From: Chloroflexota bacterium
GTDB lineage: Bacteria > Chloroflexota > Anaerolineae > Aggregatilineales > Phototrophicaceae
NCBI GenBank assembly: GCA_028873975.1
Contig: JAPPMO010000036.1
Span: 44,209 to 108,208 of the forward strand
Direction: 5' to 3'
DNA length: 64,000 bases
Shown here: positions 53,346-64,000 of the stretch, in pieces
Layout of the letters: each line of letters opens with the position of its first letter
Numbering within the stretch: position 1 is the stretch's first letter
Position numbers and translations under genes: made by a program
Notes under the pieces: generated by a model
What the model saw: only the letters and a program-made list of their open reading frames with translations
The model's database searches: none
What the model was told of the DNA's origin: nothing

Positions 53346-54515
53346 TCAGGCTTCGTCCGGCTGTCTCTGCAAGATATGCGTTACCACGGTGCTTCCCGGG
53401 CCGGCGATATTTTGGACGAGCGCGCGTCGCGCGTCAGGAACTTGATTCGAGCCTGCGGACCCGCGCAATTGCAGCGTCGATTCCACGGCTTGGTAGATGC
53501 CGGTGGCGCCGCCAGGATTGCCTCGGCTCTTTAAGCCTCCGAAAGTGCTAATGGGCAGATCGCCGTCCAGAGCAATATGCGATCCCTTGTCCGAGGCCAG
53601 CGCCCAACCAGCGCCCGGAAGACAATATCCCATCGCTTCAAGCGCAAGCGCCGTCATAACTGTATAGGCGTCATGCAATTCAAATAGGTCGATATCCGCG
53701 CGCCCGAGCCCGGCTTGTTCCAGCGCGCCAAAAAACGATTTCCCGATTGCCGCGAAATGAAGTGGATCGTCGCGGTCCTGCAACATAAATCGATCCGTCG
53801 CAACCGCGCTTGCGCAGATCTGCACTGGCTGCGGCACCATATCAGCCGCAAGATCTGACTCGACCAGAACGACGGCTGCGGCGCCGTCTCCATCCGGGGC
53901 GCAGTCAAACAGGCTGACCGGGTCGGCAATCATCGGCGCTTTGGCAAATGCCCCGTCTCGCAGCCTGTTGCGATACATGGCGCAGGGATTAACAGCGCCA
54001 TTTCTATGGGCGTTGACGCTGAACCCTTCAAAGTCCGACAGAGTCAGATCGTTCTGATGCATGTACCGTCGCATCACCAGCGCGGCCAAGGCGGTCATGG
54101 TCAGCCCGTGGACCGATTCCAGGTCGGCGTCCAAGCTGATAGTTCGCGCGCCCACACGCGCGGGACCAACGATGTCTGTCGCCTTCTCGACGCCGACGAC
54201 CAGCGCCGACCTCACCAAACCGGATTCCACGGCGAGACAAGCGGTTCGCAGCGCGACGCCACCCGACGCATCGCCCGCTTCACATGTGAAAGCCTCGATA
54301 CCGTTCATCCCTAATTCGGCGCCGATCAAGCTGCCCAACTGAGTCTGTTGATTGAAAGCCGCGCCATAGGCATTGCCGACATACAAGGCATCAACATGAG
54401 CGGTTCCGGCATCTTCGAGGGCTAGTCCGGCTGCTTCCGCGGCCAGCTCGCGAATGCCTTTAGTCCAGTGCTCGCGCACCGGGATCATGCCTGCGCCGAT
54501 GATTGATACATTCAT
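53346..54515 (-). CDS. Archaeal-type acetyl-CoA C-acetyltransferase (thiolase)
   Basis: Thiolase-superfamily enzyme (389 aa) of the archaeal/SCP-x-like type that joins two acetyl-CoA to acetoacetyl-CoA. The nucleophilic Cys78 is in AFTCEAGDASGG. The His-containing motif is ELHDAYTVM, and the C-terminal SRGNPGGATGIYQ carries the last active-site loop. It starts six bases after the HMG-CoA synthase stop, as in archaea, where both proteins form one channelled complex with DUF35. Canonical bacterial thiolase motifs (GGGQG) are absent, which supports this class. Confidence 0.92.
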   Translation of the reverse strand: MNVSIIGAGMIPVREHWTKGIRELAAEAAGLALEDAGTAHVDALYVGNAYGAAFNQQTQLGSLIGAELGMNGIEAFTCEAGDASGGVALRTACLAVESGLVRSALVVGVEKATDIVGPARVGARTISLDADLESVHGLTMTALAALVMRRYMHQNDLTLSDFEGFSVNAHRNGAVNPCAMYRNRLRDGAFAKAPMIADPVSLFDCAPDGDGAAAVVLVESDLAADMVPQPVQICASAVATDRFMLQDRDDPLHFAAIGKSFFGALEQAGLGRADIDLFELHDAYTVMTALALEAMGYCLPGAGWALASDKGSHIALDGDLPISTFGGLKSRGNPGGATGIYQAVESTLQLRGSAGSNQVPDARRALVQNIAGPGSTVVTHILQRQPDEA

Positions 54516-54521
54516 GTCGGG

Positions 54522-55589
54522 CTAGTCCTTGAGTTTGTCGCGATAGCGAACATAAGTAGCGTAGTCAATTTCAATCCGGCGATGTATATAGTCCCGAGTG
54601 GAGGGCAAATCTTTCGGCTTCTCGTCGATCCTGTCGGTAACATAGAGGTCAAAGGCGTCCGATCCCGCGCCACTGCCATAGCTGACCATCAGAATCCGAT
54701 CGCCGGGTTTGGCTTGATCGAGGAGCGCGGTCAATCCGATCATGCAGGAGCCGGAGTAAACATTTCCAATATCGTTTGCGAGCAAGCCCCCCGCGATTTG
54801 TTCTGGGCTGAAGCCAAGTGACTTGGCGGCTCGTGCGGGAAACTTGACATTAGGCTGGTGAAAAACGGCATGCTGATAATCTTGAGCGCAACTGCCCATC
54901 ATATCCATCAAGGTCGATGCCGCCGCTATGGTATGGGCGAAGTAGGCTGGCTCACCGGTAAAGCGATCCCCATGACTGGGATAAATTTCCCCGGATCTGC
55001 GCCAGAAGTCAGGCGTATCCGTCACGTAACTGTAACTCCCTTGATAGACTGCGTAACTTTCCTCGGCCGGTCCTAATATGAAAGCGGCGCCGCCGGAACC
55101 GGCTGTAAACTCCAGCGCGTCGCCGGGTCTGCCTTGGGCTGTATCCATGCCGATACTTAGCGTATAGTGCGCCATACCGCTGCCGACGATCCCGATCGAG
55201 GCTTGCACGGCTTCGGTACCTGCTTTGCAGGCGAACTCCCAGTCCGCAGCCTGGATATTGGCGGAGGCGCCAATGCTTTCGGCGACGACCGTGCTTGACG
55301 GCTTTACCGCGTAGGGATGGCTCTCGCTGCCAACCCAAACCGCGCGAATATCTTCCGCGGCAATCTCGGCGCAAGCGATAGCGTTGCGCGCCGCCTCAAT
55401 CGACATCGTGATCACATCTTCGTCAATGCCCGCCACTGCCTTTTCCCGCACCGGCGCGGCGCCCTGCCCCTTCGTCCATATTCGCGATATCTCGCGGCCG
55501 GGCAATCGGTAGCATGGTATGTAGGCGCCATATCCGACGATGCCTACGCCTCGATCCGGCTTCATCAGCCAGCTTGATTCACTGTTCAT
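54522..55589 (-). CDS. Hydroxymethylglutaryl-CoA synthase (archaeal type)
   Basis: Condenses acetoacetyl-CoA and acetyl-CoA to HMG-CoA (355 aa). The catalytic triad is visible: Glu in [15 protein letters not shown] (~89), Cys121 in [11 protein letters not shown], and His in [10 protein letters not shown] (~245). [13 protein letters not shown] is the archaeal/short bacterial N-terminus. ATG 55589 overlaps the HMG-CoA reductase stop (ATGA). An inner ATG at 55565 would also fit. It is followed directly by the thiolase. Confidence 0.95.
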
Positions 55590-56878
55590 GATCGTGACTT
55601 CCGTTGCTTGACCAGTTCTCTTGCGCGTTCCAATCGAATCTTGCCCTCCGCTTCCATTTGCTGCGCTATCGCCAGGACGTCTTCAACATGGGCGCCGGCG
55701 GCAATCGCTAGCTGGCGGGCGTGCATACGCATGTGCCCGCTCTGAATGCCATCGGTGGCCAGCGCGCGCATTGCCGCCAGGTTTTGCGCCAGCCCAACCG
55801 CCGCCGCCACTTCCGCCAGTTGTCGCGCCGACCGAAGGCCAAGGATCTTGAGCGCGGTCTGCGCCAGGCGATGGACGCGCGTTGCCCCGCCGACAATGCC
55901 GACCGCCAGGGGCAATTCAATTCGCCCCCGCAAGTCGCCGCTTTCATCTTTCCACCAGCGGCTAAGGCTTGAATAACGGCCGGCGCGGGCTGCATAGGCA
56001 TGCGCGCCCGCTTCGACCGCCCGCCAGTCATTCCCGGTAGCGATCAGCAGCGCGTCAATCCCGTTCATGATGCCCTTGTTGTGTGTGGCCGCGCGGTAGG
56101 GATCCAGCTCGGCGAATACGGCAGCTTCCAGAATGCCGTCGATGACTTCCTCCCCGCTCGCGTATTCCTTGCCGAAGGCGGAGGCGGGAATACTGCCTTC
56201 GGCCCATACCCTTCTATGATCGGACAGATTGCTTAGAATCCGTAGATTTGCCCGAGCGCCGCTGATCTTTTCGATGAATGGCGAGACGTGTTCCAATGCC
56301 GTATTGACCGCGTTCGCGCCCATGGCATCACGCGCATCGTAGAGCAGGTGAACGACGATCATTTCCCCTATGCTTGTATTCTTGAAAATGCGAGTCCGCA
56401 GGTCGACGGCGCCGCCTCCGCGTTCTTTGATGCTGCCCGCTGTTTCATTCGCCTTGTCAATTATCTCCGCCTTGTGCTGCTCAATAGCCCCGACAACGCG
56501 ATCCCTGTCCTTGACATCAAGCAGTTGAATCTGCCCCGTCATCAGCGAATCGTCGCTCGCCGCCTGGAAGCCCCCACCCGCGCGAAACAGCTTGGCGGCA
56601 AAGCTGCAAGCCGCAACGACCGATGGCTCTTCAATGACCATTGGAACCAGGTAGTCGATGTCATTGATCAAGAAGTTCGTGGCGACCCCAAACGGCAAGG
56701 AATACCGTCCGATGACATTTTCAATCATCAGATCGGCCTCATGCAAAGCCAAGCCGCCTTTTTCCAGGCTTTGCAGGTCCTCGGCCGAAAGATCGGCCCA
56801 ATCGCGGGCGATCGCCTGCCTCTCGGCAAGCGGCTTTTTATACAAGCCTGATATGGTTGATCTTCGTTCTCGCGTCAT
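55586..56878 (-). CDS. mvaA: Class II hydroxymethylglutaryl-CoA reductase
   Basis: Reduces HMG-CoA to mevalonate (430 aa). Motifs: [20 protein letters not shown] (substrate loop), [14 protein letters not shown] (catalytic Glu), [12 protein letters not shown] (cofactor-binding and catalytic Asp region), [12 protein letters not shown] (catalytic Lys) and the class II ending [11 protein letters not shown] with the catalytic His. The bacterial class II form lacks a membrane anchor. It is the first gene of the upper mevalonate cluster and overlaps HMG-CoA synthase by four bases. A palindromic site lies ~40 bases upstream. Confidence 0.95.
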
Positions 56879-57512: not shown

Positions 57513-58712
57513 GTGGCCGATGTATACGACAAATTAGCGGGATTTACGGTCGCCAGGGAAGCCATGGAAATGGGCATTTACCCCTTCTTCCGCGCTCTGA
57601 GCGACTCCGAAGGAACGACAGCGACTTTCGAAGACAAAGACGTCGTCATGTTGGGCTCCAACAATTACCTGGGCTTGACAACCGACAGCCGCGTGCAAGA
57701 GGCGGCGATTGATGCGACCAAGCGTTATGGCACCAGCGTCACCGGATCGCGATTTCTCAATGGCACGCTCGAGTTGCACCTCGAGGCGGACCGGCGTCTG
57801 GCTCAGTTTGTGGGCAAAGAAGCGGCGCTGGTTTTTTCCACCGGGTACCAGACGAACCTTGGGACTGTCTCCGCCTTGATCGGGAAGAACGATGTGGCCA
57901 TCCTCGACAAGGACGTGCATGCCTCTGTTGTTGACGGGGTTTCCATGTCCCGCGGCATGATGAAGCGCTTCAAACACAATGATATTGTCGACCTTGAGCG
58001 CGTCTTGAGCAGGATACCGGACGAACACGGCAAAATTGTCATGGTCGATGGAGTCTATAGCATGGGCGGCGACTTCGCCCTGTTGCCACAGATTGTAGAA
58101 GTATGCAAAAAATATGAGGCGCGCATTCTCGTTGACGACGCGCATGGCATTGGCGTCGCCGGGGGCGGCCGTGGAACGGCAGCGCATTTTGGCTTAACCA
58201 ATCAGATTGACCTGATTATGGGCACATTTAGCAAGAGCTTCGCTTCTATTGGGGGCTTCATCGCCGGGTCGGCCGACGTTATTCACTATATACAGCACCA
58301 CGCCCGATCGCTGATTTTTTCGGCTGCCTTGCCCGCCCCGAACTTGGCGGCGGTCTTGGCGGCGCTGGACATCATCGAAAATGAACCGGAGCATGTCCAA
58401 CAGGTTTGGAAGAACGCGGAATACATGCGCAAGGGTTTGATCGAACTCGGCTATGATACCTTCAATAGCCAGACGCCAATCATCCCAGTCAAGATTGGCG
58501 AGCAATTTCGCACGGGCTTGACCTGGATGGCATTGATCGAAGAAGGCGTCTATACCAACCCGGTCGTGCCGCCGGCAACCCCGCCCAATCAAGCTCTCTT
58601 GCGCACAAGCTACATCGCTACCCATCGCCAGAAGCACCTCGATCGCGCCTTGGTGGCCTTCGAGAGAGTCGGCAAAAACCTCGATTTGATCCCGTCTCGC
58701 GAGACTGTGTAA
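57513..58712 (+). CDS. PLP-dependent alpha-oxoamine synthase, serine palmitoyltransferase-like
   Basis: Fold-type I PLP enzyme (399 aa) that condenses an amino acid with an acyl-CoA or acyl-ACP and releases CO2. MLGSNNYLGL, GSRFLNGTLELHLEAD, DDAHGIGVAGGGRGTAAHFG and the PLP lysine motif GTFSKSFASIGGFIAG are visible. The last is closer to serine palmitoyltransferase and related synthases than to KBL or BioF. The frame is open to 57360, but GTG 57513 after GGGAGAAAGAG fits the family start. No other sphingolipid gene is near, so KBL or BioF activity is not excluded. Confidence 0.82.
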   Translation: MADVYDKLAGFTVAREAMEMGIYPFFRALSDSEGTTATFEDKDVVMLGSNNYLGLTTDSRVQEAAIDATKRYGTSVTGSRFLNGTLELHLEADRRLAQFVGKEAALVFSTGYQTNLGTVSALIGKNDVAILDKDVHASVVDGVSMSRGMMKRFKHNDIVDLERVLSRIPDEHGKIVMVDGVYSMGGDFALLPQIVEVCKKYEARILVDDAHGIGVAGGGRGTAAHFGLTNQIDLIMGTFSKSFASIGGFIAGSADVIHYIQHHARSLIFSAALPAPNLAAVLAALDIIENEPEHVQQVWKNAEYMRKGLIELGYDTFNSQTPIIPVKIGEQFRTGLTWMALIEEGVYTNPVVPPATPPNQALLRTSYIATHRQKHLDRALVAFERVGKNLDLIPSRETV

Positions 58713-58753
58713 GCGCAAAAGCCAGCGCTTGCTTCGGGGGGTCTGGCTCCAGG

Positions 58754-59809
58754 TTAGGCGCCGTACACGATTAGATTGCCCGCCCCGTCTACTACATCCC
58801 CGATAATTGCGGCATCGTCGCCGTTGTCGCGCAAATCGTCAAGCAAGTTTGCTGCGTTTTCCGCCGCAACAGACATCAATAATCCCCCCGATGTCTGCGG
58901 ATCGAAAAGCAGCGCCTCGTTATTGGCGTCGGCGCTTTCCTGAAACGACAGCCAGCGCGAGAAGTATTCACGATTGCGTTCCATGCCACCCGGGAATATG
59001 CCGCGCTGCGCGTATGCAAATGCCCCCGGCAGCCAAGCGAGCGCTTCAAAGTTCAGGCGGAGATCAACCCCGCTTAAGCGAGCCATTTCTTGCCCATGTC
59101 CCGCCAAGCCGAATCCGGTAATGTCCGTCATCGCGCCTACCCCATGCAGTCGCGCGCATTCCGCTGCGTTGCGATTGAGCCGAGACATTACGTTGACGGC
59201 GCTCTCGATATGCGCCGACGAGGCCAGCCCGCGCTTCAACGCGGTCGTAATGACGCCCGTGCCAAGTGGCTTGCTCAGAACAAGCTTGTCGCCCGGGCGC
59301 GCGCCGGCTTTGCGAATGATATTCGCCACCGGGACCACGCCGGTCACCGACAAACCGTATTTTGGCTCATTGTCGCTTATTGAGTGCCCGCCCGCAATGA
59401 CTGCGCCGGACTCGCGCACTTTTTCCGCCCCACCCCGCAGAATCTCTTGGAGGATATCGAGCCCGAGTCCGTCGGGATAAGCTACCAGGTTAATCGCCAG
59501 CAATGGTTCGCCGCCCATCGCGTAAACATCGCTAAGCGCATTCGCCGCGGCGATCGCGCCAAATTCATAGGGAGTATCTACGACAGGCGGGAAGAAATCC
59601 GTTGTGCTTATGATCGCGCGGCCGTCATCCAATCGATAAACCGCCGCATCGTCTGGCTCGGACAAGCCCACCAGCACCTGCGGGAATTCCGAGGACTTAA
59701 AATTGTCACTGAGTGGCTGCAAGACTTGCGCCAAATCGCCCGGATTGAGCTTGGACGCTCAACCGGCGCAGGTGGCCAAGCTCGTTAGCTTGATTTCAAC
59801 TTCGCTCAT
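58754..59809 (-). CDS. selD: Selenophosphate synthetase, selenoprotein with in-frame UGA (Sec17)
   Basis: Makes selenophosphate from selenide and ATP (351 aa including Sec). From ATG 59809 the frame reads LTSLATCAG, TGA (59759-59761), ASKLNPGDLAQVL. The TGA is codon 17, the exact position of the catalytic Cys/Sec in SelD (compare CAGUAAK-type sequences), and the match to the family continues on both sides of it. Then follow LSEPDDAAVYRL, STTDFFPPVVD, GGHSISDNEPKYG and TDITGFGLAGHGQEMA. Starting after the TGA would remove the ATP-binding glycine-rich loop. A ten-bp hairpin with a one-base bulge directly follows the TGA. Conventional gene finders would truncate this gene at ~59734. Confidence 0.9.
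59728..59758 (-). promoter_or_regulatory. SECIS-like hairpin in selD
   Basis: Directly after the TGA, GCG (bulged T) CCAA pairs with TTGGCGC, then ATC pairs with GAT across a five-base bulge, closing on loop CGGGC, 16-20 bases downstream of the UGA. The Gs in the apical loop, the bulged U and the distance fit bacterial SECIS elements. Confidence 0.65.
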
Positions 59810-59824
59810 TTTCCCACACCCTCC

Positions 59825-59852
59825 AAGAAAAAAGCTCACTGCTAAAGTGAGC
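59825..59852 (-). terminator. Terminator after tRNA-Pro
   Basis: On the minus strand GCTCACT-TTAGC-AGTGAGC (59852-59834) is followed by TTTTTTCTT. It separates the tRNA from selD. Confidence 0.8.
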
Positions 59853-59863
59853 CTATTATACGC

Positions 59864-59941
59864 TGGTCGGGGTACCCGGATTCGAACCGGGGACCTCTTA
59901 CACCCCATGCAAGCGCGCTAGCCGGACTGCGCCATACCCCG
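59864..59941 (-). tRNA. tRNA-Pro (anticodon GGG)
   Basis: Acceptor stem CGGGGTA/TACCCCG, anticodon stem CTTGC/GTAAG with loop ATGGGGT, T loop TTCGAAT, and discriminator A. Unlike the two other tRNAs in the window, CCA is encoded. Confidence 0.95.
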
Positions 59942-59952
59942 AACATATATTT

Positions 59953-59981
59953 ATGATAACACAGATCTGAGAAAGCGCCAG
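59953..59981 (-). promoter_or_regulatory. Possible promoter of tRNA-Pro
   Basis: -10 TATCAT (59958-59953) at the right distance from the tRNA, 17 bases from a weak -35 CTGGCG (59981-59976). Confidence 0.4.
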
Positions 59982-60013
59982 CCGGCAATCGTTTGCGCAG
60001 GCCTGGCGGAACG

Positions 60014-61670: not shown

Positions 61671-64000
61671 TCAAGGCGCCGCAAAAACGACCGGTAGGTC
61701 GCAAATTGCGCCTTTCGACATCACACCCTGTTCATCCACAATGCTCAAACGCAGCCTGTGCAACCCAATACCGAATACTTCGCTATTTATCAATCCTATG
61801 ACATCATTAGTAACGGAATCGAATCCCTCAATATACTGGGAGTATTTGTCCGACCAAGCGGGACGGACGTCAAGCCGGAACTCAAAATCGTCAGGCAAGT
61901 TAACCGAGCCGATAACCTGAATTATCCCGCGTATCTCTTGCATGGCAAGCGGCGAAACGATTCGCGACGATTCCGATTCACATCCGATTACTTTGGGCGG
62001 AACCGCGGCATCCGGGAATACCGGTACAGTTGTTGCTGGCGGCATGCTTGGTATTGCCGGCAAAAACAGGGTTTCCCCCGCCAGCACACCGCGGATCGGT
62101 TCAAAGCAATTGCCTTTCTGAATCTCGACAATACTTGTGCCGATGCTTTCCGCAATGGCAAGCAGATTGTCGCCTTCAGCAACCTGGTAAGGCTCCCAGT
62201 CAATTGCTGCTTCGCAGGATTCCATTTGCGCGACCGGGACGAATCCAAGCGCAGTAGGCGTTGGCACCAATCTGGAATAGATCAAAGGCAGCATTGACGC
62301 GGTGGCGCTTGCTTGGACCGTAGCTGTAACTGTGGGTTGATACACGGGATCGGCAACCGTTTTCGTATTCTCTGCCGAAACAGTCTTCGTCGCCGTTGCG
62401 GATTTAGTCGCGCCTTCATCAGCCGTCGGCATTGGCCCCCGGCTCACCGTCGAAACTTTCGTAGCGATCACCGGGATTCCGGTTGCGGTTTCAGAGATTG
62501 CAGTCGCTACAAACATGTCAGGAACTACCGTTGCTGTCTCCGTGATCTTGTCAGTCCCCGTCGGGCTCGGAACATCCGTCGCGGTAGCCGTCGCCGTCGC
62601 TGTCCGTTTCACCAGAGCTGTTTGGCTGGCGCGGATCTGACGCTCTGCGCTTGTCGCTGTCTCCGCAATCTTGTCAGTCGTAGTCGGGCTTGGAACATCC
62701 GTCGTGGTAGAAGTGGCGGTTGTCGTTGCCGTCCGTTTCACCAAAGCCGTTCGGCTCGCATGGATATCACGCTCTGTACTTGTCGCTGTCTCCGCGATCT
62801 TGTCAGTCGCCGTCGGGCTTGGGATATCTGTCGTAGTAGCTGCTGGCGTGGTAGTAGCAGTAGCCGTCGCAGTCCGTTTCACCAGAGCCGTTCTGCTGGC
62901 GCGGATCTGACGCTCTACGCTCGCCGCAGTCTCCGCGATCTTGTCAGCCGCGCTCGGGCTCGGAACATCCGTCGTGGTAGCCGTTGGCGTGGAAGTTGCC
63001 GTTGCTGTCCGTTTCACCAGAGCCGTTCTACTGGCGCGGATATCATGCTCTGCGCTTGTCGCAGTCTCCGCAATCTTGTCAGTCGCGGCGAGGCTCGAAA
63101 TATCCGTCGCGGAAGAAGTAGCGGTTGCCGTTGCCGCCCGCCTCACTAAAGCCGTTCGGCTCGGGCGGAGATCGCGCTCTGCGCTTGTCGCAGTCTCCGC
63201 GATCTTGTCAGTCGTCGTCGGGCTTGGGATATCTGTCGTAGTAGCTGCTGGCGTGGTAGTAGCAGTAGCCGTTGCAGTCCGTTGCACCAAGGCCGTTCGG
63301 CTCGCGCGGATGTCACGCTGAAGGCTCGCCGCAGTCTCCGCGATCTTGTCAGCCGCGGTCGGGCTTGGAACCGTCGTGGTAGCCGTTGGCGTGGAAGTTG
63401 CCGTCGCCGTCTGTTTCACCAGAGCCGTTCGACTGGCGCGGATCTGACGCCCTACGCTTGTCGCTGTCTCCGCGATCTTGTCAGGCGCCGTCGGGCTTGG
63501 AACATCCGTCGTGGTAGCGGATGGTGTGGTAGTAGCAGTAGCCGTTGCAGTCCGTTGCACCAAGGCCGTTTGGCTGGCGCGGATCTGACGCTCTACTCTT
63601 GTCGCTGTCTCCGCAATCTTGTCAGTCGCCGTCGGGCTTGGAACATCCGTCGTGGAAGTAGCCGTTGCCGTTGCCGTCCGCCTCACTAAAGCCGTTCGGC
63701 TGGCACGGATCTGACGCTCTACGCTTGTCGCTGCCTCCGCGATCCTGTCAGTCGCTGTCGGGCTCGGAACATCCGTCGTGGTAGCCGTTGGCGTGGAAGT
63801 TGCCGTTGCTGTCCGTTTCACCAGAGCCGTTCGGCTGGCACGGATATCGCGCTGAAGACTTGCCTCTGTCTCCGCCATCTTGTCAGTCGCTGCCGGGCTT
63901 GGAACATCCGTCTTTGTAGCGGATGGAGTGGCAGTAGCCGTTGCCGTCCGTTTCACCAGAGCCGTTCGACTGGCGCGGATCTGACGCTTTACGCTTGCCG
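61671..64000 (-). CDS. Partial tandem-repeat LysM protein (5' end beyond the window)
   Basis: The frame is open to the right edge, so only the C-terminal >=775 residues are seen. About eleven modules of 42-48 residues each join a Thr/Ala/Pro-rich linker (TATATATTTPSATTTDVPSPTATD) to a helical segment (DKIAETATSVERQIRAS, then RTALVKR). Then come a unique Thr-rich region, a LysM domain (YQVAEGDNLLAIAESIGTS to VLAGETLFLPA) and a ~110-residue C-terminal domain with Cys (VIGCESESSRIV to KGAICDLPV). It is probably an exported wall-bound stalk protein; function unknown. The repeats vary in length and sequence, so this is coding rather than a CRISPR-like array. Confidence 0.75.
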   Translation of the reverse strand, partial: ASVKRQIRASRTALVKRTATATATPSATKTDVPSPAATDKMAETEASLQRDIRASRTALVKRTATATSTPTATTTDVPSPTATDRIAEAATSVERQIRASRTALVRRTATATATSTTDVPSPTATDKIAETATRVERQIRASQTALVQRTATATATTTPSATTTDVPSPTAPDKIAETATSVGRQIRASRTALVKQTATATSTPTATTTVPSPTAADKIAETAASLQRDIRASRTALVQRTATATATTTPAATTTDIPSPTTTDKIAETATSAERDLRPSRTALVRRAATATATSSATDISSLAATDKIAETATSAEHDIRASRTALVKRTATATSTPTATTTDVPSPSAADKIAETAASVERQIRASRTALVKRTATATATTTPAATTTDIPSPTATDKIAETATSTERDIHASRTALVKRTATTTATSTTTDVPSPTTTDKIAETATSAERQIRASQTALVKRTATATATATDVPSPTGTDKITETATVVPDMFVATAISETATGIPVIATKVSTVSRGPMPTADEGATKSATATKTVSAENTKTVADPVYQPTVTATVQASATASMLPLIYSRLVPTPTALGFVPVAQMESCEAAIDWEPYQVAEGDNLLAIAESIGTSIVEIQKGNCFEPIRGVLAGETLFLPAIPSMPPATTVPVFPDAAVPPKVIGCESESSRIVSPLAMQEIRGIIQVIGSVNLPDDFEFRLDVRPAWSDKYSQYIEGFDSVTNDVIGLINSEVFGIGLHRLRLSIVDEQGVMSKGAICDLPVVFAAP
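62540..64000 (-). repeat. Degenerate ~126-141 bp tandem repeats in the LysM protein gene
   Basis: About eleven copies recognisable by DNA coding for DKIAETATS and RASRTALV. Copies differ mainly in the length of the Thr/Ala linker, always in multiples of three bases, and some copies share longer identical tracts, which points to recombination among copies. Confidence 0.8.

Follow-up and report, generated by a model that had tools for sequence, protein, structure and literature searches.

Selenocysteine-Type SelD and Two Constrained Hairpins After Its UGA Codon in a Chloroflexota Genus

The selenophosphate synthetase gene selD of an uncultured Chloroflexota bacterium contains an in-frame UGA at the catalytic position, codon 17, and the reading of this codon as selenocysteine (Sec) is well supported by sequence comparison. 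The gene lies in a 64,000-nucleotide stretch of DNA, referred to here in its entirety as the window. Two hairpins downstream of the UGA are constrained in Sec-type selD genes beyond what the protein code explains, and much less or not at all in genes that carry Cys at the same place. We hold with good confidence that the product is a Sec-containing SelD whose UGA is decoded via SelB and tRNA-Sec, the second hairpin most likely being the SECIS and the first an accessory element.

The selD Gene and Its In-Frame UGA Codon

The features of selD and of the region directly upstream are the following (window coordinates):
58754..59809, minus strand, selD, selenophosphate synthetase of 351 residues with Sec at 17 (TIGR00476 match)
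59759..59761, minus strand, TGA codon 17, read as selenocysteine (opposite a Cys of PDB 3u0o; kept in the genus)
59820..59824, minus strand, GGAGG, probable ribosome-binding site of selD (sequence reading)
59828..59852, minus strand, terminator-like hairpin with a T-run, between tRNA-Pro and selD (by eye; similar upstream of selD in relatives)
59864..59941, minus strand, tRNA-Pro (GGG), directly upstream of selD (ARAGORN/Rfam)

The frame opens at ATG 59809, 10 nt from the end of the GGAGG, and closes with the stop codon at 58754-58756. Its one internal TGA is codon 17, preceded by TCAG and followed by ASKLNP in the translation of the minus strand, and the rest of the frame is open. Read through, the protein scores 382.9 bits against TIGR00476 (cut-off 125), which makes it a member of the family, and residues 1-345 align with PDB 3u0o, placing the UGA opposite the Cys of an 'AGC' motif. 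This Cys we take to be the catalytic Cys17 of E. coli SelD. The motif at the UGA is of the UxxK type (U17 A S K20). A preliminary description of this DNA had proposed a frame from ATG 59809 with TGA as codon 17 and a full SelD sequence behind it, and both the translation and the alignments with TIGR00476 and 3u0o confirm this. Without readthrough, the listed open reading frame begins at TTG 59734 and encodes 326 aa, 25 residues fewer, with the catalytic position missing, exactly the loss that had been predicted of standard annotation. The Sec reading thus repairs the annotation of selD where it would otherwise be truncated.

In each of the 34 genus genomes compared, which represent one species apiece, selD codon 17 is TGA, and its place was verified from the DNA in all of them (27, window included, plus 7). 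At the level of the family, 79 of 98 genomes have a SelD match, which is near full length in 69 and partial or weak only in 10. Sixty-six of the 69 near-full-length matches, among them all 34 from the genus, contain one TGA, whose place was verified in 47; the remaining three have none, and carry a Cys codon at codon 17. One of the partial or weak matches (G040) also holds a TGA. Among 80 selD loci from named genomes, a few of which are identical over 51 bases to genomes of the G-labelled set, codon 17 is TGA in 70 and a Cys codon in 10. The alignment suggested in the preliminary description finds TGA or Cys at this codon in relatives, with the 3u0o Cys opposite the UGA. A sense codon in close relatives, which would have pointed to a sequencing error, was found in no genus genome. 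Residues ~7-25, which surround the UGA, are largely conserved among relatives. Decoding of UGA as Sec is probably common to the entire genus.

Three loci inside the family (L141, L142, and L143) carry a Cys-type selD and appear to be Sec-to-Cys switches.

Neighborhood of selD and the Rest of the Window

Among 27 genus loci (the window plus 26 from L103-L131), ARAGORN places a tRNA-Pro upstream of selD and on its strand in 22; in the remaining five the 3' end of this tRNA can still be read. L022, L023, and L128 have the tRNA-Pro in the opposite orientation. A TATAAT just after the tRNA-Pro of the window was rejected as a candidate, as it is not kept in the relatives compared. At 61671-63998 an open reading frame of at least 775 aa, still open at the end of the window, contains about ten copies of a unit of ~141 bases that is rich in Thr and Ala, and has by our own reading a LysM-like stretch near its end. 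On the minus strand at 53346-56878, three adjacent genes look from their translations like a thiolase-type enzyme, HMG-CoA synthase, and HMG-CoA reductase, and as such would look like a mevalonate-pathway cluster.

Selenocysteine Machinery and Other Uses of Selenium

The source genome (4.46 Mb, 119 contigs, 95.8% complete) contains selA (561.9 bits, cut-off 267.9), selB (336.5 bits, cut-off 242.25; 337.1 bits at the protein level), and selC, the gene for tRNA-Sec (71.5 bits, gathering score 47), which ARAGORN likewise calls tRNA-SeC. Each of the three lies on a contig other than that of selD. A second match to the tRNA-Sec family above the cut-off (50.2 bits) was discarded, being tRNA-Ser according to ARAGORN. 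The absence of this machinery had been named beforehand as evidence against Sec decoding; all three components are present above their cut-offs and, together with the retention of the UGA throughout the genus, they support the earlier claim that the organism decodes UGA as Sec. A single selD was found in the source genome, so that expression of full-length SelD should depend on the selenophosphate that SelD makes. This would close a circuit, with Sec required for SelD and SelD required for Sec.

A stricter version of this circuit, compatible with the decoding of codon 17 described above, is that SelD is the sole selenoprotein and that the Sec machinery is kept just to make it. The results for the few families searched in the source genome lean in this direction. 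The one PF04879 match has no internal stop, and no Sec-type formate dehydrogenase (FdhA) was therefore found in the source genome. YbbB had zero matches there and none above the cut-off in the 34 genus genomes, 12 of which had short matches of ~25-32 positions only, and YqeB was absent from the search of the source genome. No TGA was present in its 7 rhodanese, 2 BtuF-type, and 5 thioredoxin matches, nor among the AhpC/TSA matches listed (best 4 of 9). SelD is on record as the single selenoprotein of YbbB-bearing species in passages of PMC1794560. However, the searches took in few of the 119 selenoprotein families and subfamilies counted in the accessible text of PMC13188914, and the genome is incomplete. 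Because just these few families were covered, a second selenoprotein could still exist, and we consider it improbable that SelD stands alone. The search for other selenoproteins that the preliminary description called for has to this extent been answered, with none in the few families searched in the source genome.

Further UGA-containing genes were also sought with a codon-usage scan of the window and of the regions around selA, selB, and selC, where the candidates looked like overlapping frames and were rejected. A coarse reading past the stops at seven loci of family matches in the source genome gave no clear selenoprotein candidate.

RNA Structure Downstream of the UGA

Hairpin positions are counted from the base directly after the UGA. 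Three structures are considered:
59728..59758, minus strand, hairpin proposed in the preliminary description, +1 to +31, not supported (covariation tests)
59738..59750, minus strand, hairpin 1, +9 to +21, four pairs GCUC/GGGC with loop AAUCC (pairing in 31 sequences, synonymous-shuffle test)
59714..59733, minus strand, hairpin 2, +26 to +45, proposed SelB site (covariation, synonymous-shuffle test)

The preliminary description had drawn a ten-base-pair SECIS-like hairpin that begins at the base after the TGA. Its pairs can be written in the window (GCG/CGC and CCAA/UUGG with a bulged U), joining +1-3 and +5-8 with +25-31. Across 94 Sec-type sequences, however, 73.6% of the cells in this stem are paired vs 73.4% in shuffles, and its covariation is 0.038 vs 0.037, a value that 203 of 500 shuffles reach. 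The stem remains at the level of the shuffles in a chosen 31 of the 94 (the genus and near relatives), and having done no better than shuffled controls on two alignments it was rejected. Relatives with the UGA but no hairpin had been named in advance as evidence against the proposal; this holds for the hairpin as drawn, and does not hold for hairpins 1 and 2. What the preliminary description observed therefore stands as regards the in-frame TGA, and what it concluded stands as regards Sec decoding and a Sec-type SelD, but the hairpin falls in both. The minimum-energy fold of the window differs from that hairpin as well, and places the UGA inside a stem (z -2.36 for the 61-nt fold, with 5 of 200 shuffles as good).

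In this fold the UGA is paired in a stem at 59737-59770, GGUUGAGC/GCUCAAUCC, which would conceal the codon until the ribosome arrives. The stem shares bases with hairpin 1, and similar letters occur in relatives of the genus.

In the window, hairpin 2 consists of an inner stem GCAA/UUGC with loop GUC (59723-59725), a bulged A at 59718, and an outer stem UGGC/GCCA. Its aligned form has seven pairs, +27-33 with +37-43, and a GUN loop at a spacing of 33 nt. Over the 94 sequences, 89.4% of its cells are paired vs 81.1% in shuffles, and its covariation is 0.282 vs 0.134, a value reached by none of 500 shuffles, although tests of this kind are inflated by the relatedness of the sequences. The signal drops when the stem is slid by one to three columns. 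Changes on both sides of a pair are seen at +30/+40 (GC, AU, CG) and +33/+37 (GC, AU); five pairs in total have changed in this way, which is less striking given that 43 of 500 shuffles reach five. At least six of the seven pairs are present in 84 of 108 Sec genes vs 2 of 13 Cys genes, one Cys gene (L143) having retained all seven.

The bacterial SECIS (bSECIS) model, as given in the accessible text of PMC13188914, has a 3-9 nt loop, a G within the first two loop positions, a stem of 4-16 bp, a distance of 16-37 nt between the UGA and the loop, and an MFE of -7.5 or lower. Hairpin 2 of the window agrees with it in its 3-nt loop GUC, in its stem of four contiguous pairs, a bulge, and four more, and in its spacing of 33 nt; its energy of -7.6 kcal/mol is just past the limit. 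The loop GU itself carries no evidential weight, because a Val codon dictates these bases: positions +34-35 read GT in 104 of the 108 Sec genes and likewise in 9 of the 13 Cys genes. Our own SECIS scan, which demands a strictly contiguous stem and an energy of -4 kcal/mol or lower, is positive in 82 of 94 Sec genes vs 3 of 10 Cys genes (shuffles 37% on average), and in 70 of the 94 Sec genes a contiguous model hairpin (-4 or lower) has its loop at 32-33 nt. In the window, the bulged A kept the scan from picking up hairpin 2.

Hairpin 1 occurs in two registers. In the genus of the window it pairs +9-12 with +18-21 (94.4% of cells paired in 31 sequences), and in other lineages +12-16 with +21-25. 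Since the register differs between lineages, only 56.6% of cells over all 94 sequences are paired in one fixed register. By our scoring, one or the other register is formed in 72 of 108 Sec genes vs 2 of 13 Cys genes, and 36 of the 108 Sec genes form neither. The Cys gene L142 has four of five pairs in one register.

For 108 Sec and 13 Cys genes, constraint beyond the protein code was assessed against versions of each gene in which its own synonymous codons had been drawn anew. With the reservation that the genes do not count as independent observations and that the Cys set is small, hairpin 1 has a mean z of -2.13 in Sec genes vs 0.34 in Cys genes (p<=0.05 in 53/108 vs 0/13), and hairpin 2 a mean z of -2.17 vs -0.50 (p<=0.05 in 57/108 vs 2/13). 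In four control stretches the mean z ranges from -0.21 to 0.46. An earlier scan in 45-nt steps over 84 Sec genes, leaving out 13 minus-strand loci that the test of 108 genes includes, gave mean z of -0.51 to 0.72 in hairpin-free segments. In the source sequence, hairpin 1 has an energy of -4.2 vs a synonymous mean of -1.48 (p 0.05) and hairpin 2 of -7.6 vs -3.46 (p 0.05); taken as a whole, the 45 nt do not stand out (p 0.12). In the family's three Cys genes, hairpin 1 is no more stable than in the synonymous versions (z 0.43 to 0.67), and hairpin 2 gives z of -0.53, 1.26, and -1.62, the last being L143.

An unconstrained consensus fold gave no structure over all 94 sequences. Folded separately, a subset of 28 (the genus and near relatives) yields both hairpins (-7.3), and the remaining 66 yield the base of hairpin 2 only (-2.5). 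An Rfam search of 58700-60000 returned only the tRNA above the gathering score.

Proposed Mechanism and Alternative Readings

In the mechanism that we favor, tRNA-Sec delivered by SelB would decode UGA codon 17 and so insert Sec at the catalytic position of SelD, with recoding directed by RNA structure just 3' of the UGA. SelB with its Sec-tRNA most likely binds hairpin 2 (+27 to +43, loop GUN), which would then be the SECIS. Hairpin 1, within +9 to +25, would be near the mRNA entry of a ribosome with the UGA in its A site, and as an accessory element may slow, pause, or position that ribosome.

That the UGA is a sequencing or assembly error, or that selD is a pseudogene, might be suspected from the fragmented assembly and the single in-frame stop. 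Yet the same TGA recurs in every genome of the genus, the frame is intact after it, and the Sec machinery is present, so the comparative data already refute this reading and we give it practically no weight. It is also very improbable that the UGA is a true stop and that SelD is made from the internal start TTG 59734 without residues 1-25. The 326-aa frame does exist and scores 355.2 bits against TIGR00476, but the largely conserved residues ~7-25 and the catalytic position would be lost from such a protein, and constraint on the hairpins downstream of the codon, clear in UGA genes, is far weaker or absent in Cys genes.

A more serious question is whether the roles of the hairpins are reversed, such that SelB binds hairpin 1, or the longer hairpin of the preliminary description built on it, and hairpin 2 is the accessory. 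The constraint on hairpin 1 equals that on hairpin 2 in Sec genes, and none of the 13 Cys genes shows excess stability there. Its spacing from the UGA is also, we assume, close to that of E. coli fdhF, which would count in favor of this assignment. In the +9-12/+18-21 register, 33 of 38 sequences have G in the first two places of the loop, as the model in the accessible text of PMC13188914 has it, but the loop in that register starts 12 nt from the UGA, outside 16-37, and AAUCC in the window has no G, so that hairpin 1 of the window does not agree with the model. The other register (34 of 108 genes) starts its loop at 16 nt but has an early G in just 8 of 34; outside the window, sequences thus satisfy either the spacing or the early-G rule. 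The lower stem of the longer hairpin is without covariation. We therefore regard SelB binding at hairpin 1 as rather unlikely, and retain hairpin 2 as the preferred SECIS.

Comparison With Known Systems

Sec-containing SelD has long been known, and the present finding is thus ordinary in kind. In a reference set of 223 prokaryotes, Sec was reported in 19% of SelD genes (passages of PMC4561486, whose supplement is said to contain the SECIS of SelD), which agrees with the earlier statement that many bacteria use Sec in this protein. The UxxK motif is listed for Sec-type SelD in the available portion of PMC13188914. The selD described here shares with Sec-containing SelD (TIGR00476, UxxK) the catalytic UGA, the UASK motif, the full SelD domain, and selA, selB, and selC in the genome; nothing essential differs, and the lineage is here an uncultured Chloroflexota genus. 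If the genus is sponge-borne, as only the isolate names of relatives suggest, then Sec-type SelD would be a concrete product of its Sec machinery.

According to passages of PMC1794560, SelD may maintain the Sec trait without FdhA, and the Chloroflexi had 3 selenoproteins and no selenouridine trait in 2006 (Zhang et al., 2006). The present case resembles that SelD-without-FdhA trait in having a Sec-type SelD and no Sec-type FdhA found in the source genome. It differs in YbbB, which is present in most of the FdhA-lacking cases covered by those passages (PMC1794560), whereas none was found here.

Bacterial SECIS elements are described as a single stem-loop in the portions of reviews available to us, and our literature search found no published description of a two-hairpin bacterial SECIS, which is weak evidence of novelty. 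We tentatively propose, as a possibility that we do not yet favor, that the selD recoding element is two-part, a ribosome-entry hairpin followed at once by a SelB-binding hairpin, that Sec-type selD has retained it in Chloroflexota, Firmicutes, and other phyla, and that it is relaxed when Sec changes to Cys. The conserved second hairpin, if true, would be a new variant of the bacterial SECIS, and the two-hairpin model for Sec insertion in selD is testable. Hairpin 2 shares with the bSECIS model, as far as the accessible text of PMC13188914 sets it out, the GU-first loop of 3 nt, the spacing of 33 nt, and the stem of at least four pairs, and the selD element differs from it in the second constrained hairpin that stands between the UGA and the SECIS, and in the bulged A within the stem of the window.
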